From Candidatus Methylomirabilota bacterium (lineage in GTDB: Bacteria > Methylomirabilota > Methylomirabilia > Methylomirabilales > Methylomirabilaceae), in contig JACQQF010000043.1 in the NCBI GenBank assembly GCA_016207095.1, forward strand, positions 1 through 64,000: a stretch of DNA of 64,000 bases, given 5' to 3'. The translations under genes and the position numbers were made by a program. Position 1 is the first letter of the stretch; each line of letters opens with the position of its first letter. Of this stretch, positions 9,365 to 20,841 are shown one piece after another. The notes beneath the pieces were generated by a model. That model saw only the letters and a program-made list of their open reading frames with translations. It ran no database searches and had not been told where the DNA came from.

Positions 9365-10246
9365 TCAGGAGACTGGCAGTCGCTCTCGTGACGGACTGCG
9401 CGGTGACCCCGGTTGGTCCGATGCCACGCGCCGTGGGCGCCTGGTGAGAACCGCCAGGAAGTGATCTCCGCCGTCGCGCACGAGCGGGAGGCCGCCCAGT
9501 CGATCGTCGAGCCATCCCAGGAGGGCGCACAGCCGGGGGCGTCGTTCGTAGACTCGGATCAGGTAGGGCGGCGGGAGGAAGAGACCGAGCGCACGGTAGG
9601 TCGTCAGTTCGAACTCACCGGCGAACGCGCGAAAGAACTCGCGAGGCGTGTGGTAGGCGGTCCACACCGTGTGGCGGTTCAGATTGACCGGCACGATGCC
9701 GCGCGCACTCCGGATCCGTGCGCGCGCCCACCTACCGCGCAGGGCGTAGTACACGAACTCCCAGGGGCAGATGCGCCCCATGACCGACACCACCAGGTGA
9801 CCTCCCGGCTCGAGCAAGGCGGCGCAGGCGCGGGCGACCGCGGTCAAGTCGGGAGCGCAGTTCATGGGCCCCAGGTTGGAGTAGATGCCGTCGAAGCGCT
9901 CGCCCTCGAGCCGAGCGAGCTCGTGGATGCCCAGCCCCTCGGCTCTGATGTGCAGGCCGGCCGCGGCAGCCCGGGACCGCGCGACTTCTACCATCCGAGG
10001 GGACCAGTCGGTGGCGACGACCTCGTACCCGTTCGCCGCCAGATAGACGGCGTCGAGGCCGGGACCGCAGCCCAGATCGAGGAGTCTGGCCCCGCGCGGA
10101 AAGAGGTCGGTCAGCGTCCGCCACATCTGTTGCCGCATCCGCTGGATGAGGGCGTTGTTGCCTCGGGGGCCATCGTACTCGGCGGCCACGCTGTCGAAGG
10201 CCCGTCGCGTGTCGAGCAGTCGGGAATCGACGCCGGTCAGTTCCAT
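9365..10246 (-). CDS. Class I SAM-dependent methyltransferase
   Basis: 293 residues from the ATG at 10246, which overlaps the stop region of the upstream radical SAM gene (10237) and so suggests coupled translation. Motif I is LLDLGCGPGLD, followed by VVATDWSPRM with an acidic residue at the end of strand 2, which is the normal SAM pocket. The C-terminal half is larger than in minimal methyltransferases and contains Trp- and Arg-rich stretches. The substrate is unknown. Pairing with a B12-type radical SAM gene suggests joint tailoring of a small molecule. Confidence 0.85.
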   Translation of the reverse strand: MELTGVDSRLLDTRRAFDSVAAEYDGPRGNNALIQRMRQQMWRTLTDLFPRGARLLDLGCGPGLDAVYLAANGYEVVATDWSPRMVEVARSRAAAAGLHIRAEGLGIHELARLEGERFDGIYSNLGPMNCAPDLTAVARACAALLEPGGHLVVSVMGRICPWEFVYYALRGRWARARIRSARGIVPVNLNRHTVWTAYHTPREFFRAFAGEFELTTYRALGLFLPPPYLIRVYERRPRLCALLGWLDDRLGGLPLVRDGGDHFLAVLTRRPRRVASDQPGSPRSPSRERLPVS

Positions 10247-11745
10247 TCCCGGCTCAGGTCGGGCGCGGCCGGCATGGGGGTCGCGTGGGGGATAGGAGTG
10301 GGAGCGGCGCTGCGGTATTGGGCTTCGGTGCGAGTGAGTTCCGCCCACTCCTCGTCGAGGCGGTTCAGTGCTGTCCGCGCGGCGAGGTCGGGAGGCGCCT
10401 GGAGGGCCGCCAGCCGCTGGCGGAGATCGAGGTCGGCGTGGAGCAAGCGGTGCAACTGGCGGTAGAACGGCGACTGATACGTGCCCTCAAACATCATCGC
10501 CAAGTCGTTGCTGTCCACCCAGTTGGTCTTGGAGCCAAGCTGGTCCTCCACCATCCGGTAAAACTTGGTGCCGGGCAGCGGATAGCTGACGCTGACGCCG
10601 ATGGTGTCGGGCAGGGTGTCGCGGACCATCCGCACCGTGGCGAGGATGTCCTGGAAACTCTCGCTCGGGTAGCCGAACTGGAGGAAGAAGCCGACCTTGA
10701 TTCCCGCCGCCTTGAGCCGGGCGCGCGCCGTGACGATCTGTTCGACGGTGATGCCCTTGTCCATCGCGTCCAGGATCCTCTGGCTGCCGCTTTCGGCGCC
10801 CACCCACACCTCGACGCATCCGGCCTGGGCCAGGCCCGTGACCGCCTGCTCGGTCATCAGATCGGCGCGCGACTGGATCATGAACGGGACGGCGGCGCCC
10901 CGGGCCGTTACCTCCCGGGCGAACTCGGTCACCCACTGGGGTCTGAGCCCGAAGATGTCGTCGGCGAACCAGATGTGGTCGGGCGCGAGCGTGCGCTTGA
11001 CGAAGGCCAGCTCCTCGGCCACGTTGGCGGCCGAGCGCATGGCGTACCGCTGGCCCCAGATCGGCTTGGCGCACCAGTTACAGTGAAACGGACAGCCGCG
11101 CGTGCTGACCATGTTGAGGCTGAAGTAGCCGTGGACGCGGACCCACGCGGCGCGGTACCGCTCGACCTCCGCCAGGTCCCAGGCGGGGAACGGGAAGACG
11201 TCGGGGTGGCGCTCCAGAGCGCGGGCGCGCGTCCTCCGGACGCCGTGCGGGGCGGCCGGGTCCGGCAGCGCCACGCCGTCCACCTCGTCCACCGGCCCGG
11301 CGATCCGCCCGCTGAGCCTGTCGAGGAGGTCGCGCAGGGTGTGATCGGCCTCGCCGATCAGCGCATACTGCACACCGTGGGGGAAGTAGAGCTCCGGGTG
11401 GTCGGTCACGTCCGGGCCGGCCGCGATCACGAGAGCGTCGGCCCGGCGAGCGGCCTCGCTCATGCGGTGGGCCGCGTCGCGCATCCGGCTCAGGCACATC
11501 TTGACCAAGAAGTTGAAGCTGTCCTCGTAGAGGGCCACGAAGCGCGGCTGGTGGCGGCGCACGGCCTCCTCGAACTCATGCTCGCCGTCGGACAGCATCG
11601 CGTCGAAGAGGGCGACCGAATAGCCGGCCCCCCGCAGGGAGGACGCCGCGTAGAGCGTGGCCAGCGGCGGGTAGGGCCGCATCTTGTCGACCTGCTTCGG
11701 GTCGTGCTTCAAAAAATAGGAGTGCGCCAGCAGAACGTCGATCAT
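10237..11745 (-). CDS. B12-binding-type radical SAM enzyme
   Basis: 502 residues. The first 150 or so resemble the Rossmann-like cobalamin-binding domain of BchE/P-methylase-type enzymes, though without an obvious DxHxxG signature. The radical SAM CxxxCxxC is at Cys218, Cys222 and Cys225, followed by the usual TIM-barrel features, including a GAESGSQRILDAMDKG segment that matches the SAM-binding part of this family. It probably performs a radical methylation or rearrangement. It starts divergently from the methyltransferase at 11833 and is coupled to the methyltransferase downstream. Confidence 0.88.
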   Translation of the reverse strand: MIDVLLAHSYFLKHDPKQVDKMRPYPPLATLYAASSLRGAGYSVALFDAMLSDGEHEFEEAVRRHQPRFVALYEDSFNFLVKMCLSRMRDAAHRMSEAARRADALVIAAGPDVTDHPELYFPHGVQYALIGEADHTLRDLLDRLSGRIAGPVDEVDGVALPDPAAPHGVRRTRARALERHPDVFPFPAWDLAEVERYRAAWVRVHGYFSLNMVSTRGCPFHCNWCAKPIWGQRYAMRSAANVAEELAFVKRTLAPDHIWFADDIFGLRPQWVTEFAREVTARGAAVPFMIQSRADLMTEQAVTGLAQAGCVEVWVGAESGSQRILDAMDKGITVEQIVTARARLKAAGIKVGFFLQFGYPSESFQDILATVRMVRDTLPDTIGVSVSYPLPGTKFYRMVEDQLGSKTNWVDSNDLAMMFEGTYQSPFYRQLHRLLHADLDLRQRLAALQAPPDLAARTALNRLDEEWAELTRTEAQYRSAAPTPIPHATPMPAAPDLSREWN

Positions 11746-11832
11746 CGGCCCTCCCGAATGCGATCCATGTTAGCGTCCGGTCTTGGGGATTGTCAAGCAC
11801 GTATGAGAGAGTGAGCGGACTCTCCTTTGCCC

Positions 11833-12546
11833 ATGAATCGTTTCAGACAGGGACTGGCGCGCCTGTGGTTGAGCCTCCAGCGGCCGATACTGCGCCGCCG
11901 GGTCGGACGGCTCGTCCTCGAGCGCATCGATGGTGTGGGGCTGGTGGTCTTGCCCGAGGTGTTCAACCCGGTGATCTTTCGCTCCAGCGCCCTCCTTGCG
12001 CACACCGTCGCGACATCGCCGCTGGCCGCCCCGACGGACGGCCGGTCTGCTGCACCGGGCGAAGGGGAAGCCCGCGCCCTCGACATGGGCACGGGGACCG
12101 GGGTGGTGGCGATCTTCGCCGCCAGACGGGGATTCCACACCGTCGGCGTGGACATCAACCCCGAGGCCGTGCGCTGCGCCCGCATCAATGCCCTCGTCAA
12201 CCACGTAGAGGACCGCGTCGAGTTCCGGCAGGGAAACCTCTTCGATCCCGTCAAGGGTGAGCATTTTCAGTTGGTCTTGTTCAATCCCCCGTTCTTCCGC
12301 GGCGCTCCCCGGCACGCCCTCGACGCGGCCTGGCGGGGGACGGATGTCATGGAGCGATTCGCCGCCGGCCTGCCCGGCGCGCTCGCGCCGGAAGGCCGTG
12401 CACTGATCGTTCTGTCTACCGACGGGGACGCTGAAGCGATGCTGCGGGCGCTGAGGGAACAGGGTCTTGCCGTGGCGGTCGCCACGCGGCGCGACTACGG
12501 AAACGAGATCATGACCATCTATGCGGTGTCGCGGCGGGAGGAGTAG
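11833..12546 (+). CDS. SAM-dependent methyltransferase with an NPPF motif (PrmC/HemK-like fold)
   Basis: About 237 residues. The ATG at 11833 is preferred over the in-frame TTG six bases upstream. Motif I is LDMGTGTGVVAI, the acidic residue of strand 2 is in VGVDIN, and the catalytic NPPF lies in LVLFNPPFF. NPPF/Y is diagnostic of N-methyltransferases acting on a planar amide or amine, such as PrmC glutamine or DNA adenine methyltransferases. It is shorter than PrmC and sits between two radical SAM genes, so a pathway role is as likely as a translation-factor role. The next gene starts 8 bases after its stop. Confidence 0.85.
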   Translation: MNRFRQGLARLWLSLQRPILRRRVGRLVLERIDGVGLVVLPEVFNPVIFRSSALLAHTVATSPLAAPTDGRSAAPGEGEARALDMGTGTGVVAIFAARRGFHTVGVDINPEAVRCARINALVNHVEDRVEFRQGNLFDPVKGEHFQLVLFNPPFFRGAPRHALDAAWRGTDVMERFAAGLPGALAPEGRALIVLSTDGDAEAMLRALREQGLAVAVATRRDYGNEIMTIYAVSRREE

Positions 12547-12553
12547 GGTGGGG

Positions 12554-14104
12554 ATGACGACGCGGCGGGTCGTCCTCGTCAATCCGCAAATGTGCGCGCG
12601 CCAGAACATCCGGCTGCCGCTGTCGGTGCTGGCGCTCGGGGCCGTGCTGGAGCGCCGCTACGACTATCGGATCGTCGACGGCAACGTGGAGCGGGATGCC
12701 GTGGGCACGGTGCTCGAGGCGGTGGGGAGCGGATCCTGCGCGCTCGTCGGGGTGACCGTCATGCCGGGACCGCAGGTCGCACCGGCGATCGAGATCTCCG
12801 CCGCCGTCCGCGCGGCCTACCCGGAGGTGCCGATCGCGTGGGGAGGCTACTTCCCGACCCTCTACGCGAACGCGGCGATCAATGCGCCTTACGTGGACTA
12901 TGTCGTCCGGGGGCAGGGCGAAGACACGTTGTGCGACCTCCTGGCGAGGCTGCCAGACGCCGGCCCGCCCGGCCCGGCGAGCTCCGCCCGCGACCCGGGC
13001 TCCCTCAAAGGGCTGCCGGGCCTGACGTGGAAGGACGCCGGTCGAATCGTCCACAACCCGGAGCGGCCCTTCCGGCCGCCGGACGAGTTTCCGCCTCTGC
13101 CTTATGACCGCCTCGGCGATGTCCGGCAGTATCTCCGGCCCACGTTCTTGGGGAGCCGCACCGGCGCCCATCAGGCGGCCATCGGCTGTCGCTACCGGTG
13201 CACGTTCTGCGGCGTGGTCTCCATGTTCAACGGCCACACCCAGCTCCAGTCCACAAGCCCCCTGCGGGACGCCCTCACGACGCTCCGCGACCGCCACGGT
13301 GCGACGGCCGTCCAGTTCTTCGATCACAACTTCTTCGATCGGGAAGAGACCAGCGTACCGATCCTCGAGGAGCTGGCTCGGCTGGAATTGCCCTGGTGGT
13401 GCTACGCGCGGGCCGATACGCTGGCGAAGTTTTCCACGACGACCTGGGAGTTGATCCGTCGGAGCCGCCTCCGAATGGCGTACATCGGCGCCGAGGCCGC
13501 CAGCGACGAGGTGCTCCGGCGGATGAAGAAGGGCACCACCGTCGAGCACACCTTGGCGGTCGCCCGCCGGTGCCGGGAGTACGGCGTCATCCCCGAGTTC
13601 TCCTTCATCCTCGGCGGACCCGAGGATCCGGAGGGCGAGATCGAGCGGACGTTCGCGTTCATCAGGCGGCTGAAGCGGCTGCACCCGGAGTGCGAGGTGA
13701 TCCTGTACTTCTACAGCCCGACGCCGCAACGCGACCCGGCGTCGGTGCAGCGGTCGAGGCGTGACGAGGCGCGGCTTCCCGTCCTGGCGACCTACGGACC
13801 GTCGGGCCCCGCCTTGCCCACGACGCCGGACGAATGGACCGAGCCCCGGTGGGTGAGCTACGTCTGCCACCAGGACGCGCCCTGGCTGTCGCCGAAGCTC
13901 CGGCGGCGTGTCGCCGATTTCACCACGGTGCTGGCCTGCCGGTTCCCGACGGTGCAAGATCACCGGACCCCGCGGTGGAGCAAGCTCTTCCTCCGGCAGC
14001 TTGCCGGCTGGCGATACGCGACTGCTCGCTACCGCCACCCATGGGAGCTCCGCCTCGCCCGGCGGCTGATCCCTCTCCGCCAGCCCGAGCGCGACGGCCT
14101 CTGA
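12554..14104 (+). CDS. B12-binding-type radical SAM enzyme
   Basis: 516 residues from the ATG at 12554, which has GGGTGGGG just upstream. An N-terminal cobalamin-type domain (about 1-130; note IAWGGYFPTLY and the following VVRGQGEDTL, both typical) precedes the radical SAM core with CRYRCTFC (Cys212, Cys216, Cys219). A GAEAASDEVLRRMKKG segment follows. It is in an apparent two-gene operon with the NPPF methyltransferase. It is related to the other radical SAM enzyme in this cluster but clearly a different protein. The substrate is unknown. Confidence 0.9.
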   Translation: MTTRRVVLVNPQMCARQNIRLPLSVLALGAVLERRYDYRIVDGNVERDAVGTVLEAVGSGSCALVGVTVMPGPQVAPAIEISAAVRAAYPEVPIAWGGYFPTLYANAAINAPYVDYVVRGQGEDTLCDLLARLPDAGPPGPASSARDPGSLKGLPGLTWKDAGRIVHNPERPFRPPDEFPPLPYDRLGDVRQYLRPTFLGSRTGAHQAAIGCRYRCTFCGVVSMFNGHTQLQSTSPLRDALTTLRDRHGATAVQFFDHNFFDREETSVPILEELARLELPWWCYARADTLAKFSTTTWELIRRSRLRMAYIGAEAASDEVLRRMKKGTTVEHTLAVARRCREYGVIPEFSFILGGPEDPEGEIERTFAFIRRLKRLHPECEVILYFYSPTPQRDPASVQRSRRDEARLPVLATYGPSGPALPTTPDEWTEPRWVSYVCHQDAPWLSPKLRRRVADFTTVLACRFPTVQDHRTPRWSKLFLRQLAGWRYATARYRHPWELRLARRLIPLRQPERDGL

Positions 14105-14248
14105 GCACGTCCCCGAGCCGCCGTCGGTCTCCGAACGGCGCGGGAGCGTTCGCAACGGCGACGTGTTGACAAATGCGCCTCGCGGATGTTCTACGCCAGT
14201 CCGCTCCCAGCGACGGCCATCCGGCGCCGGCTCGACAGGCGCCAGACC

Positions 14249-15493
14249 CTAGCGCGAGCGCGGCTCGAACCGCCGCAGCAGGAACCCGAACGCCAGCCCC
14301 CCCGCCACCAGGAACGCGGCCGCCGCGATCATGACCACCGGATAGCCGAAGCGCGCGATCCCCGTCCCCGCCACCGGCGCCGCGACCGCATTGGCCGAGA
14401 AGATCACCAGATACATCAGCGACGAGGCGCCGCTCCGTTGGGCGAGCGGCACCTGGGTCATCAGAAGGCTCTCCATGGCCGGCTCGTCCATCCACTGGAA
14501 GGCCAGGTAGCCGCCGAAGCCCAGCGCCGCCATCCAGCCCGGCGAGCCGGTGGCGAGGAACGCCAGCGACAGCCCGGTGAACACCTCGACACCCATGATC
14601 CCGCGGACTGCACCGACGCGTCGCACGATGAGCGGAGCGAACAGGATCGCGCACACCTGGGCCAGCTGCCCGGCCGAGAACACGACGCCGATGTCGTGGA
14701 CCGGCATCTTCAGGTACTGGGCGAAGTACGCGTTGGAGAACGGGTTGAAGGCCCCGGTGCCGAGATTCATCAGGGCGAGCGCGGCGAGGAAGCGCGCGAT
14801 AAACGCGCCTCGCGGGTAGGAGACCCGCTCGGGCCGGGGAACGTGGCCGAAGCGCAGGTGCGCGGCCGGCCACAGGGCCAGCGCGGCGATCGCGCAGCCC
14901 ACCAGCAGGGCGGCCCGCTTCGTCTCCACCGAGGCGGTGGTCCGGATGACGGGCGCCAGCCAGCCGGGCAGCCAGCCGCCGACCGCATCGGCGAGAATGC
15001 CGATCCCGATGACCGAGGCCAGGTAGGCGCTGAATCCAACGGGCCGTAGCTCGGCCGAGGTCAGTTGGGCCACGATGACCGGGATGGAGATGGCCCAGAA
15101 CGCGAAGGTGACACCCCAGAGGAAGGCCCAGCCCAGCAGGGCTGCCTGGCCGACCACGAGCGCGCGACCGGCCGACACCGCCGCCATGCCGGCGAAGCAC
15201 AGCAGGAGCAGGCGCTTGAGGCCCAGGCGCCGGGTCGCCGCCACGACGAACAGGGTGCCGACGATGTTGCCGGCGGTCATGGCGCTGGTAACGAGCCCCA
15301 GAAAATCCTCGCGGAAGCCCCGGTCGAGCAGGTAGAGATTGTAGAGCAGCACGAAGACGAACACCCCGAACGTGAAGAGGCAGGACGCGACGAGGAAAAC
15401 CCAAAACGCGCCCGACAGGCCGGAGAACGACCATCCGGACAACCGGGCTCGCATTCGGGAGAAGATCATCAAACCGCTACGGGCGGAGGGCAC
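14249..15493 (-). CDS. MFS transporter
   Basis: 414 residues with about twelve hydrophobic segments and a basic loop between helices 2 and 3 (TRRLGLKR), as in the major facilitator superfamily. It lies tail to tail with the radical SAM gene ending at 14104. It may export the product of the radical SAM/methyltransferase cluster; that role is inferred only from position. No drug-specific motif was seen. Confidence 0.88.
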   Translation of the reverse strand: MPSARSGLMIFSRMRARLSGWSFSGLSGAFWVFLVASCLFTFGVFVFVLLYNLYLLDRGFREDFLGLVTSAMTAGNIVGTLFVVAATRRLGLKRLLLLCFAGMAAVSAGRALVVGQAALLGWAFLWGVTFAFWAISIPVIVAQLTSAELRPVGFSAYLASVIGIGILADAVGGWLPGWLAPVIRTTASVETKRAALLVGCAIAALALWPAAHLRFGHVPRPERVSYPRGAFIARFLAALALMNLGTGAFNPFSNAYFAQYLKMPVHDIGVVFSAGQLAQVCAILFAPLIVRRVGAVRGIMGVEVFTGLSLAFLATGSPGWMAALGFGGYLAFQWMDEPAMESLLMTQVPLAQRSGASSLMYLVIFSANAVAAPVAGTGIARFGYPVVMIAAAAFLVAGGLAFGFLLRRFEPRSR

Positions 15494-15675: not shown

Positions 15676-16659
15676 ATGAAGACCGTCAGACGGTTGGTCC
15701 TGCCCGCAGTCGTGTTCGCGACGCTCTGCGCCCTGTCAACACCGGAGCTGAAGGCGGCTCCGGGGACCGGCACGTTGTTTGGGACTGATGCATTCAATGG
15801 CAATCTCATTACCATTAATCCGTCCACCGGTGTGGGGAGTGTGGTCGGACCCCTGGGGGTGAGCTCTATCCCCTCCCTCGCAGTGGACCCCTTGGGCATA
15901 AGCGGCACCATGTATGCCGGCGGGGGCGGAGGGTTTCCACGCATTTACACCGTGAACCCTACGACGGGGGCCGCGACTCTGCTCGGGGATACCGGTCTCG
16001 GAGTCGCCGCCGTGAGCGGGCTTGACTTCCACAACGCAACGGGCACCCTGTATGCGTCTGTCAACATCGCGGGGGCCGGCGGAACCGGGGCGGATCACCT
16101 CGCAATCATTAACAAGACAACGGGCGCGGCCACGGTCGTCGGGCCCTTCGGATCGTGCACGGGCGTGACCATCCCCAGCACCGGCGGGGGGTCCTGTACC
16201 ATCGAAGGGATGGAGGGCATCGCCTTTGACCCGTTCGGCAAGCTGTGGGGATCGCATCGAGTGGGGGCGGCGGGACTGCCAGGGCTCTATCGGATTGACG
16301 TGGCGACGGGGGCGGCGACCTTCGTGGCACCGTTTCTGGATGCCTCGGGCAGCTCGCCGTCGGGCGGCGTCGTGAGTCTCCAGTTCGCTTGTGATGGGAC
16401 GCTCTATGGAGGGACCGCGTTTGCAGTCCCGCCAGCCACCGATGGCGGGAACCTCATCAAGATCCTCACCACGGGAACCCCGGGATTCTTTTCCACCGTG
16501 GGGAAGGCAGTGCCGGATGCCAGCCTCGGGGCCCTGGCATTCCAGAACGCATGTGAGATTCCGATCATCCCGTCCGTGTCCGAAGGGGGACTCATCCTCC
16601 TGGCGCTCCTGTTCGTCGCGCAGTTGGCCTGGATGATGAGGAGGCGACGAGTCGTCTAG
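15676..16659 (+). CDS. Secreted repeat protein with IPTL-CTERM-like sorting tail
   Basis: 327 residues, start supported by GGAGGT upstream. There is a signal peptide (about 1-28), then a beta-rich body in which blocks of the type INPTTGAATxLG recur. That is typical of propeller-like secreted proteins whose repeats report an association with Thr-Gly-Ala turns. The last 33 residues read IPIIPSVSEGG, a hydrophobic helix, then RRRR. This is the tripartite layout of IPTL-CTERM tails, which exosortase-type enzymes process at the inner membrane. The canonical WG is replaced by GG. No exosortase is in the window. The stop lies 4 bases from that of the convergent G8 protein gene. Confidence 0.8.
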   Translation: MKTVRRLVLPAVVFATLCALSTPELKAAPGTGTLFGTDAFNGNLITINPSTGVGSVVGPLGVSSIPSLAVDPLGISGTMYAGGGGGFPRIYTVNPTTGAATLLGDTGLGVAAVSGLDFHNATGTLYASVNIAGAGGTGADHLAIINKTTGAATVVGPFGSCTGVTIPSTGGGSCTIEGMEGIAFDPFGKLWGSHRVGAAGLPGLYRIDVATGAATFVAPFLDASGSSPSGGVVSLQFACDGTLYGGTAFAVPPATDGGNLIKILTTGTPGFFSTVGKAVPDASLGALAFQNACEIPIIPSVSEGGLILLALLFVAQLAWMMRRRRVV

Positions 16660-16663
16660 GCGT

Positions 16664-19600
16664 CTATGGCGATGTCGTAATCGGGCACACCGGGGTGTCC
16701 TTGGCTGCGTTAGGCGCGTGATGCGGGAACTTGTTATCCTTTCCGAGCTCCTCCTTGGTCAGGATCGGGGTGTTCGTTGTGTCGCCAACGAGCACGAGCA
16801 CGTTCTCGTTGGCGGGAGGATTCTGCGCATAGGTCTCATAGGGTTGGCACGTTGACCGCCCCGGCTGGTAGGTCGGGTCGTTCAAGAGCACCACGTAGTG
16901 AGGACATCCCGCGGCCGGGCAGGCATAGTAGCTCTCGTCGTCCTTGAGCTTCGGACATAAAGCGTCGCCGGTGCCATCTTCATTGCAGCTCCCGAGTGGC
17001 GACGGCCCGAAGGCGTTCGGGAGGTCCTGCACGACGTTGAAGAACAGCATCCCGGTGCTGGAGTCGTAGAAGTACTCGTCGAGCACCGGCTTGCCATCCT
17101 TCGTCAGTTCTCCTATCGAGCTCGCCGAAGTCAGTTTGGTCTTCCCATAGATGCAGGCGTTTGTTCCCGTGTCCTTCGTCGAGGGGAACGCACACCCATC
17201 CGTGGGGATCGCGGTCACGCCGTGTGCCGGACAACCTTTCACGCCTTTGTTTGGCCCGTCCGTGCAACCCGGCGCGTCGTCCGGACAGAGATTTCTTGAG
17301 GTTGGATCCTGCTGATCCAACGCGTCGCAGAATTCGCCGTTGTAACGGTGATCGAGCTTGTTGAAGAACTTCTGCAGTTTGGGATCATCAAATTTGGTCT
17401 CACCCCCGCCGTACGACTTGAAGCCACGGGTGATGCTGAACTTGCTCGCGTCTGAGGGATGCTTGCCATCCTTATCGGTGTAGCAGATTCCAAGGCGAAC
17501 GTGGAACCATGTGTCGGCTTTGGCGGGGTGGGGGTCGATGCCCGGCTTCACTGCGTCGGTGATCCCAACTGACATATAGCTCGGAATACCTGTGTTGTGG
17601 AAGTTCGTGCTCTTGTCATCGTCATTGCATGTCACATCTGTCGGCCGGTTCACCGGATCCTTGGACGCGCACGCGCTGACCGTGTAGCCGTAGCCGCTGG
17701 TGACCTTGGGTTCCCAGACGCCCCGCCGGTCGCGGCTGTGCAGTGCCATGGTCTGGTGCTTGCCGAAGTCCAGCGAGTCTTTGCTGAAGGTCATGATCTG
17801 GGTGTGGTTGCATAGGAATGCCGGGTTTTTGCCGGTGTCCTGGCAGTTTGGCGGGTCGAGGAGATTCGGCAAGAGCGCTCCGAACTCCAGCGTCGCCATG
17901 CTGCCTGGGGAGATCAGGGAGGTCGGCCGTGCTTCGAAGAACGTGTCCTGCGCGCCCTCCGCACGGCACTCGTCCACCGAGTTCGACGAGGCGTTGAAGG
18001 GCAGGTTGTTCAGCGAGATCGGCTCCAGCCCTTTGACCGACTGTTTGCTGCTATTCACGACCCTGAGACCGGTGAGCGAGCCGTCAAGGTCGATGATGGC
18101 GGTGTTCTTGTCGCCGTCGTTGAACTGCGTGGCCGCTTGAGCGCCGGACCCCCCCCGGCTGACATTCTCCGTAAAGACTTGGTGGCGGAGATCCACGTTC
18201 GTCCAAGTGAACCCCTTGCCGACGGTCGAGGTCGGGTAGGCGCTCTGGTTCGAGTCGAACCAGCCCAACGCCGCGTCCCCTTCATAGATGAAGTTCTGTA
18301 GAGGGTCTGTGCCCGTGAACGGGTGCACCTTGGCGTAGGTCTTGAAGAAATTCTGATCGGCGGTCGTCCAGAGCGAACCCCCCGGACCCGCCGAATCCGC
18401 CGGATCCACCCGGAAGTTGACGAAGTGGTTGTTGAAGATCCGGACCGGCCCGTCGTAGATCATATAGCCGAAGAAGTTCCAGTCTGGGGTTGGGTACCCG
18501 CCCCCGCAGCAGTCCTCGATGATGTCCCCGCCGTGAAGCTGCGCCACCGGGAGGGTGTGTTGTGGGCCCGGAGTCTGGTCGATGCAGCCGTATTTACCAC
18601 CGACACCGTTCGTTAAGGGCTGGTCTGACGGCGTCTCCGTCGGACACGGGCCGAAGCGATCGACGTTGTTGGTGCTTTGACCGACGACGACCGAGTCCTG
18701 GAGCAGGTCCCAAACCCCGGGAGAATTGCCATCGAGACCGCCGGAGCTGACGAGCGTGACGTTCAGCCGATTGGTGGCCAGCCGGGCATTCGTGACGGCG
18801 TACCAAGTCGGCCGCAACCAGATGCCGCGGCCCCGGTTGCGCGTCACCGTTATGCCATTGAACTTCACGATGACCGGTGGATTACCGGCGACTCCGCCCT
18901 TAACCGGGAAGAGCGATTGCTGCAGAATGACCTTGCCGTCTGTTTCGCCCAATAGGCCGCCCCAGCAGCCGTGGACCCGGTTGTTGTCGAAATTGCCCAA
19001 TTCCTTTATGTGGAGATCGACGAGAGCGCCGGGAGGGCAGGTCTTGCCTATTGGGCAGATCTGGACCGTGGGCGGCACGTACCAGTAGCCGCGGCCCGTC
19101 CCCTGACAGCCGCCGATCGAGTTGCCGCTGAGCTCGGTCCCCGGATTGATGATCCAGAAGCCGCTGGGGGGCTCGGTGTAAAACTGGTTCGCGGTGCATA
19201 GGGGGTCCTGCTGGACTCTAAGCGAGCCGTCGCCCGACTCCAAAAACACGGTGCACCTCCCATGCGTCGGATTGGTCTGGCCATCGGTGTTCGGGACGCG
19301 GAAGCCGTCGTAGCCGATGAAATTGGGCGAGGTCGAGTCGTTGGTCAGGTAATCGCCGGTCCACCAGAAGTTCTTGATAAGGGTCGTTCGTATCGAGTCG
19401 GTTGGCGCATTGATATCAAAGTAGTGGCTCATCGCGCCGAGGCCGAGGTTATTCAGGTACGACACCTTCTCCTCATCGCCGATCTCCTGGTAGAAGATGT
19501 GCCCGACGATCCGCGCGCAGACCATGTTCTGGATGGTGATGTTCTGGGTCGAGTGAACCGTGACGCACTTGTTGTAGCTGTGATGGATGCTGTTGGCGTT

Positions 19601-20722
19601 GACGAGCGGCTTTGAGCCGCTGACATCTCCATCGAGATGGAAGTGGATCGGATAGCTGCCGAGCTGAGCCTTGCCGAACTTCTCGATCTCGACCCCCTGG
19701 ATCGAGACCTCCTTGAATCCGTTGAGAATCCTGATCTCCCCGCCCCAATGGGCGTTATTATCGCCGGACTCGATCTTCGCGGTCAGCTTGATGTTGCGGC
19801 TGATCAGGCCGACCTCGGCGCGCTCGTCAACGCCGTAGTTTTTGTCCGCGCCGGCCTTGAAGTTCGCAGATGAGGGAGGGCCGGGGTCAGATCCGCCGAA
19901 GTGGTAGTACTTCAGCGACTGCTTTAGGGTGACCGTGCTGCCGGCCGCGCCTTTCGAGACGGGCGCGTTGATCTGGACGAACTCTGTCTCGAAGGGGCTG
20001 AAACTGGTCGTCGCGATCGCGATCCAGTCTCCATCCTGCCACGCGCCTGCCCCCGCCGCGACGTCCTTTGCCAGTTGCAGCGTCGTGGCGCCGTTGGCGG
20101 GCACCGGTCTGCCGATGTTCAGCTTGACCATGTCGGTGTCCGCGCCGTACTTGTCCTGGGGTCCGGCAGCCTCGCTCAGATGGGTCCAGCTTACGCCGTC
20201 CGGCGCGCCTCCTGGCACTCCTCTGGCACCAAAGAGCCTGAGACTGCCGTCCTTCTGGACCACGATTCCCTTTGTGTGGTCCTCCGAGGAGGGACGCGAT
20301 CCGGTAAACGTGATCGTCACCTTGTTCTTGGGTCCGATCGAACACATCGAATCGCCCACCTGGAACAGGCCCTCGACGCTTATCCCGGCGGTCTCGATCT
20401 CGACCGTCTGATCCGGCACGAACAGTTCTCCCCCCTTGTCAATCTGGATCGTCCCGAGAGCATTACCATTCGCCGTCGTGTAGGAGCCATCGACGTAGAC
20501 ACTCTTGCACTCCGCTCCATGGTCCGGTCCGATCAGGAGGTTTTTTGGAGAATTCTGCTTTTTTATGCACGCTGATAGTGGCGTTGCGTCGTCTTCTACG
20601 CAAGGAACCGGGGGAACCGCTTTGGCGAACGCCGTGCCGATCTGAAAGGTTGCGATCGACGCAACGATGAGCGCAATGATTCCGCCCGGGGCGACTCGGT
20701 CCTTGAACGATCTTCGCGTCAT
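16664..20722 (-). CDS. Large secreted G8/CEMIP-like parallel beta-helix protein
   Basis: 1352 residues, start with AAGGAGA upstream. A signal peptide ends near AFA (residue 33). Residues 60-165 look like a G8 domain (GGELFVPDQTVEIETAG and following). A DWIAIATTSFSPFETE segment (232-247) and a block at 357-429, containing YPIHFHLDGDV, IHHSYNKCVTVH and GHIFYQEIGDEE, closely resemble the conserved core of the animal proteins CEMIP/KIAA1199 and TMEM2 and of fibrocystin-like proteins. The C-terminal 400 residues are Cys- and Asp-rich with no sorting tail. CEMIP and TMEM2 act in hyaluronan depolymerisation, so a polysaccharide-binding or cleaving role is possible but inferred. Confidence 0.8.
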   Translation of the reverse strand: MTRRSFKDRVAPGGIIALIVASIATFQIGTAFAKAVPPVPCVEDDATPLSACIKKQNSPKNLLIGPDHGAECKSVYVDGSYTTANGNALGTIQIDKGGELFVPDQTVEIETAGISVEGLFQVGDSMCSIGPKNKVTITFTGSRPSSEDHTKGIVVQKDGSLRLFGARGVPGGAPDGVSWTHLSEAAGPQDKYGADTDMVKLNIGRPVPANGATTLQLAKDVAAGAGAWQDGDWIAIATTSFSPFETEFVQINAPVSKGAAGSTVTLKQSLKYYHFGGSDPGPPSSANFKAGADKNYGVDERAEVGLISRNIKLTAKIESGDNNAHWGGEIRILNGFKEVSIQGVEIEKFGKAQLGSYPIHFHLDGDVSGSKPLVNANSIHHSYNKCVTVHSTQNITIQNMVCARIVGHIFYQEIGDEEKVSYLNNLGLGAMSHYFDINAPTDSIRTTLIKNFWWTGDYLTNDSTSPNFIGYDGFRVPNTDGQTNPTHGRCTVFLESGDGSLRVQQDPLCTANQFYTEPPSGFWIINPGTELSGNSIGGCQGTGRGYWYVPPTVQICPIGKTCPPGALVDLHIKELGNFDNNRVHGCWGGLLGETDGKVILQQSLFPVKGGVAGNPPVIVKFNGITVTRNRGRGIWLRPTWYAVTNARLATNRLNVTLVSSGGLDGNSPGVWDLLQDSVVVGQSTNNVDRFGPCPTETPSDQPLTNGVGGKYGCIDQTPGPQHTLPVAQLHGGDIIEDCCGGGYPTPDWNFFGYMIYDGPVRIFNNHFVNFRVDPADSAGPGGSLWTTADQNFFKTYAKVHPFTGTDPLQNFIYEGDAALGWFDSNQSAYPTSTVGKGFTWTNVDLRHQVFTENVSRGGSGAQAATQFNDGDKNTAIIDLDGSLTGLRVVNSSKQSVKGLEPISLNNLPFNASSNSVDECRAEGAQDTFFEARPTSLISPGSMATLEFGALLPNLLDPPNCQDTGKNPAFLCNHTQIMTFSKDSLDFGKHQTMALHSRDRRGVWEPKVTSGYGYTVSACASKDPVNRPTDVTCNDDDKSTNFHNTGIPSYMSVGITDAVKPGIDPHPAKADTWFHVRLGICYTDKDGKHPSDASKFSITRGFKSYGGGETKFDDPKLQKFFNKLDHRYNGEFCDALDQQDPTSRNLCPDDAPGCTDGPNKGVKGCPAHGVTAIPTDGCAFPSTKDTGTNACIYGKTKLTSASSIGELTKDGKPVLDEYFYDSSTGMLFFNVVQDLPNAFGPSPLGSCNEDGTGDALCPKLKDDESYYACPAAGCPHYVVLLNDPTYQPGRSTCQPYETYAQNPPANENVLVLVGDTTNTPILTKEELGKDNKFPHHAPNAAKDTPVCPITTSP

Positions 20723-20841
20723 GAGAATCTCCTTTTCGTGCCTTGGGAGCGGCCCCGCCGGTGTGCTCCTTTCTCTCGTGTCTCTTGGTAACGATCTACG
20801 TGAGGCGGCAGGCCTTCACCTCGGCGTGGCGTTGCCGCTTT

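Follow-up and report, generated by a model that had tools for sequence, protein, structure and literature searches.

The window analysed here is a stretch of 64,000 nucleotides from a Candidatus Methylomirabilota bacterium. Positions 16664-20722 carry one intact minus-strand ORF of 1352 aa, whose product we refer to as P0001; read on the plus strand, the same interval contains many stops (Table 1). The 1352-residue protein of the original prediction is therefore real and intact, with the strand now assigned. The gene starts with ATG and has a ribosome-binding site close upstream. Inspection of the N-terminus suggests an export signal, in keeping with the secretion first proposed for this protein, and it includes TRRSFK, a possible twin-arginine motif. 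The neighbouring gene at 15676-16659 is convergent with the CEMIP-like gene, the two stop codons lying 4 bases apart, and encodes a DUF4394-type protein with a sorting tail of the IPTL-CTERM class, which is an exosortase-type signal. Farther off, positions 9365-15493 of the window hold two radical-SAM/B12-binding proteins, two methyltransferases and an MFS transporter, with a GC content of 0.70, above that of the flanks; this block was not found beside the LOG gene in four congeners.

Table 1. Features of the CEMIP-like gene, with positions in the window and residues of P0001
Feature	Position	Strand	Basis
CDS, 1352-aa CEMIP-like G8/beta-helix protein (P0001)	16664..20722	-	ORF, Pfam, PDB match
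AAGGAG ribosome-binding site	20729..20734	-	sequence upstream of ATG
N-terminal export signal, residues 1-33	20624..20722	-	by inspection, predicted
G8 domain, residues 84-167, opening beta-helix turns	20222..20473	-	Pfam PF10162, E 1.9e-9
CEMIP beta-helix PF24606, two stretches	18962..19747	-	profile matches
Invariant candidate active/metal site, residues 357-417	19472..19654	-	YPIHFH, VHST, GH....E...E; alignments
Enlarged subfamily-specific loop following the motif, residues 426-522	19157..19447	-	alignment
Probable domain X, about residues 1060-1232	17027..17545	-	family profile, hhalign
Cys-rich C-terminal region, residues 919-1346	16685..17968	-	alignment; 11 Cys in all three subfamily members

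On profile evidence, P0001 is a new, real and well-supported member of the G8/CEMIP family. The G8-like N-terminal domain seen in the original prediction is recognized by Pfam with 37.9 bits (curated cut-off 22.9), and the block at residues 357-429, likened there to the core of CEMIP and TMEM2, lies inside the CEMIP_beta-hel match (residues 326-442, E 9e-40, 137.1 bits against a curated cut-off of 27.3) and is among the most conserved parts of the protein. The likeness is thus more than that of a generic beta-helix lacking G8, since the Pfam Beta_helix profile matches far more weakly (E 0.026). No NCBIfam family was found for P0001, and a sequence search of the PDB returned a single match, the human TMEM2 ectodomain (8c6i, E 1.7e-30).

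The fold points the same way. The AlphaFold model, from whose input alignment three rows originating in plasmid records were left out, has a mean pLDDT of 59.7, with values of 85-93 over much of the helix and under 50 over much of the length of the C-terminal half. In a Foldseek search with this model, the top PDB match was again TMEM2 8c6i (E 3.6e-30, probability 1.0), with a TM-score of 0.46-0.49 when the entire model, parts of which are of low confidence, is counted. The next matches at E < 0.001 were K1 capsule lyase, phage tailspike depolymerases, GH110 and XylC, with GH87 and AlgG just above that value; all of these act on carbohydrates. The streptococcal adhesin PfbA was among the weaker matches. 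Taken together, the sequence and fold comparisons show that P0001 is a right-handed beta-helix protein, a CEMIP/TMEM2 body (G8 turns, helix and probably domain X) without either lectin-like domain.

The Cys-rich C-terminal region, left unassigned in the original prediction, can probably be assigned in part. It contains WFHVRLGICYTD and YFYDSSTGMLFFNV, which resemble the stretches WIRVGLCYP and FYFDSSTGLLFLYL of TMEM2 domain X, the beta-sandwich that comes next after the TMEM2 beta-helix. A profile of 19 family members aligns through domain X, up to TMEM2 chain residue 1055; using hhalign, the C-terminus of the subfamily matched only the end of domain X, at the second stretch (probability 54%, E 1.3e-4), and a PDB search with the C-terminal alignment alone gave no match. 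These alignments indicate that the C-terminus of P0001 probably contains domain X with Cys-rich insertions. The 11 C-terminal cysteines are common to P0001 and its nearest homologues, L012 and L147, the region being 55% identical. Both homologues end in a GGGCS-TM-Arg tail, before which P0001 stops. A common GG(G)C-TM-Arg tail closes the secreted proteins L012, L147, L148 and L149, all of one 'Deltaproteobacteria' MAG lineage; it has no NCBIfam match and may be a Myxo-CTERM-like sorting signal.

The same genome encodes a second, divergent copy of 1239 aa on another contig (C70, L007:13750-17466), with matches to G8 (E 2e-12) and CEMIP_beta-hel (E 4e-45). It lies in an apparent operon (L007:12510-19422), between the genes for a BBP7 porin and an NHL/thrombospondin-3 (TSP3) protein. 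Only this genome, 1 of the 95 examined in the phylum, carries the family; neither copy occurs in the 94 others, and the P0001 gene is absent from all 14 congeners examined. Among the genomes sampled, the family genes are confined to the host species. Such an isolated occurrence might suggest that the P0001 gene is a binning or assembly artefact foreign to the host genome, but we consider this extremely improbable. A LOG gene that shares 67-84% identity with the congeneric copies is 245 bp away from it, an nth gene with 79% identity is close by, and the second copy, on its own contig, adjoins a uvrC 80-95% identical to its counterparts in congeners; given these genus-type neighbours, both contigs belong to the genus. 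In addition, at 0.80 the GC3 of the P0001 gene agrees with the values of local core genes (0.76-0.83), unlike that of the L012 gene (0.53). Genomes of the host's genus measure 1.7-3.0 Mb and mostly encode pmoA (PF02461), which is present in 8 congeners and was not found in the host genome; the latter is possibly a non-methanotrophic Methylomirabilis, or the gene may fall in an assembly gap.

Bacterial G8/CEMIP proteins are widespread and not rare: a single peptide pattern, scanned once against GTDB species genomes, returned 277 relatives, with hosts including Erythrobacteraceae, Gammaproteobacteria, Bryobacterales, Thermaceae and Armatimonadota. The sole close relative of P0001 in that scan was L012, from the 'Deltaproteobacteria' MAG OFTM172 (55% identity over residues 46-1350). 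Six of 99 genomes of OFTM172 kin gave matches; G095 and G105 carry the P0001 subfamily, and G101, G104 and G106 that of the second copy. The nearest kin, 55-61% identical for P0001 and 64% for the second copy, are in both cases found in relatives of G095. In a tree built by a quick method and containing long branches elsewhere, 100% SH-aLRT was obtained both for the clade of P0001, L012 and L147 and for that of the second copy, L148, L149 and L150. Transfer, for which the original prediction had called for a phylogeny, thus finds support in the grouping of both copies with 'Deltaproteobacteria' MAG proteins. The tree and distribution suggest that both copies were acquired horizontally, most simply from the lineage of these MAGs, the direction being deduced from the sparse distribution in the host's phylum. 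As a transfer signal, GC3 was uninformative, as it matches the host genome. Transfer from an animal to a bacterium was rejected, given that P0001 falls among bacterial proteins, has no counterpart of the animal insert and is less similar to TMEM2 (36%) than are other bacterial members (48%). A phage origin was likewise rejected, there being no phage match and only three distant relatives on viral contigs, and so was plasmid carriage, the homologues found on plasmids being distant only.

Within the helix, H360, H362, H390, E413 and E417 are invariant in all 99 bacterial sequences of the family set, although this set is biased because Y357, H360 and H362 formed part of the search pattern and the extraction filter also loosely required the downstream His, H390. 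The same five residues occur in human TMEM2 as H550, H552, H585, E608 and E612. Here, TMEM2 numbering is the deposited-chain index plus 82, since 23 vector residues precede residue 106 in the deposited chain (PMC10206443). In a further 54 sequences, from genes found by Pfam HMM independently of the motif pattern, no substitution was observed at the five positions, gaps from fragments apart. R301 and R309 are likewise invariant in the 99 sequences and in TMEM2, and H408 is present in 98 of 99. The 54 sequences include eight very distant acidobacterial proteins (L165-L172, 720-780 aa, E about 1e-25) that keep the five residues and carry Ala in place of H408 and Leu in place of R301; because of these changes, both were dropped as core site residues. 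Judged by the strand register of the model, HFH, VHST and GH....E...E occupy one turn after another, and H390 points in the same direction as H360/H362; from this we infer that the five residues may cluster in space. We propose, from their conservation, that P0001 is a carbohydrate-active beta-helix enzyme in which they serve as the active site or bind a metal. The loop that follows the motif has 98 residues in the P0001 subfamily against a family median of 52 and, lying beside the candidate site, would shape the choice of substrate.

The profile of the 19 bacterial members aligns with human TMEM2 nearly end to end (E 7.8e-166). The alignment has two blocks, which cover residues 46-167 and 339-1055 of the chain, or 128-249 and 421-1137 in TMEM2 numbering. 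It skips 171 residues (chain 168-338, TMEM2 about 250-420), where TMEM2 has a small beta-sandwich and its lectin-like domain 1, both described as inserts in the helix (PMC10206443). Past TMEM2 1137, the bacterial profile contains nothing equivalent to lectin-like domain 2, and no ILEI/GG domain was found by profile search in the 19 members at E <= 0.1. In P0001, 63 residues separate the end of G8 from the conserved W228, too few to leave room for a lectin domain. Changes at R265, D273 and D286, all in lectin-like domain 1, are reported to abolish hyaluronan degradation by TMEM2 (PMC10206443), and A303 has been added to these changes in the lectin insert (PMC10276149). The relevance to hyaluronan implied in the original prediction is therefore not supported, as the insert bearing the residues that TMEM2 needs is absent, and the name hyaluronidase is not justified for P0001. 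A bacterial hyaluronidase acting as CEMIP and TMEM2 are said to would agree with the shared family and fold (E 8e-166); we regard it as very unlikely, given the absence of the 171-residue insert with R265, D273, D286 and A303 (PMC10206443, PMC10276149) and of a glycosaminoglycan pathway among the commonest families of neighbouring genes.

Our best explanation, held tentatively and at a little short of an even chance, is that P0001 is an exported beta-helix protein, likely carbohydrate-active on a polysaccharide other than hyaluronan, with its site at the five residues, and that both copies were acquired horizontally. A carbohydrate-active role is the best guess since the fold matches that follow TMEM2, from K1 capsule lyase to AlgG, all act on carbohydrates. 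The enzyme would act on an extracellular or periplasmic polysaccharide, with catalysis centred on H360, H362 and H390, on consecutive turns, together with E413 and E417, in a site that would be metal-bound or of the general acid/base type; the disulfide-rich C-terminus would stabilize the protein outside the cell. Several points count against this proposal, among them the modest confidence of the model. No CAZyme family was among the 25 commonest families of the 94 genes neighbouring family members, which argues against a dedicated polysaccharide pathway; neighbouring genes were also rejected as a guide to the substrate, as no polysaccharide genes recurred among the 94. Human TMEM2 keeps all five residues, yet studies of the purified protein disagree, one finding it inactive (PMC10206443) and the other active (PMC10474455). 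The original prediction considered long bacterial members little studied; we found no paper on bacterial members, and no activity of any of them was reported in the literature searched. We know of no bacterial member of known activity.

It is less likely, though a possibility to be taken seriously, that P0001 is a non-catalytic surface or matrix protein, either an adhesin or a structural beta-helix, with a glycan or another cell as its binding partner. Its richness in disulfides, the resemblance of the GGGCS-TM-Arg tail of L012 and L147 to a surface-anchoring signal and the weaker fold match to PfbA would all fit such a role; however, P0001 itself has no anchoring tail, and His and Glu residues kept so strictly, across phyla and as far as animals, are more usual in a catalytic or metal site than in an adhesin. 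Rather unlikely, in our judgement, is a redox or metal-dependent enzyme with Fe, Cu or Zn at its His/Glu site, exchanging electrons with small cytochromes c, although a set of three His plus Glu would suit a transition metal and TRRSFK resembles a Tat signal. At eight or more loci from several proteobacterial clades (L027, L028, L033, L039, L040, L042, L051 and L060, in Gammaproteobacteria, Caulobacterales and other Proteobacteria), a gene for a small class I cytochrome c is found within about 60-400 bp of the family gene, head-to-head or tail-to-tail. This is an enrichment of about fivefold over farther flanks (P 0.003, or 0.02 when doubtful far cases are counted). No cytochrome c gene is found beside the P0001 gene, none was seen beside those of close kin and most loci have none, so we treat this adjacency as a lead only. 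A long shot that would extend it is that the five residues are a transition-metal site common to bacterial G8 proteins and animal CEMIP/TMEM2, which would carry out metal-dependent, possibly oxidative depolymerization (with cytochrome c partners in some bacteria) and not classical hydrolysis, the animal lectin insert being a later addition that aims the enzyme at hyaluronan.

The value of the analysis lies in a testable active-site proposal for the G8/CEMIP family. The enzyme status of human TMEM2 is disputed (PMC10276149, PMC10474455). The structure paper on TMEM2 assigns no active site, and where it lies in TMEM2/CEMIP is an open question (PMC10206443). The bacterial members offer a naturally stripped-down version for finding it, as they keep the helix core and the five residues and lack the insert that bears the inactivating changes; H550, H552, H585, E608 and E612 of TMEM2 become direct targets for mutagenesis.

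Compared with the known animal proteins, the TMEM2 (CEMIP2) ectodomain 8C6I and CEMIP/KIAA1199/HYBID, P0001 has in common the G8 turns and the beta-helix core, which is 36% identical to that of TMEM2 over 183 columns; the five invariant His/Glu residues are present in both P0001 and TMEM2, and domain X is probably shared as well. TMEM2 has the lectin-like domain 1 insert, lectin-like domain 2 and a membrane anchor, whereas P0001 has none of the three and instead shows a longer 426-522 loop and extra Cys-rich stretches. The common bacterial G8 proteins of 850-900 aa (Erythrobacteraceae, Bryobacterales, Thermaceae and others) resemble P0001 in having G8 and the CEMIP beta-helix without the lectin insert, but they are 25-36% identical to it, have a shorter C-terminus and often occur in several copies per genome. 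L012 and L147 (the latter from the relative G105) belong to the subfamily of P0001, with the same loop and 11 C-terminal Cys in common, and differ in their GGGCS-TM-Arg tail. The second copy, about 25% identical to P0001, belongs to the other clade, with the proteins of G101, G104 and G106, and combines, as P0001 does, G8, the CEMIP beta-helix and a Cys-rich C-terminus.
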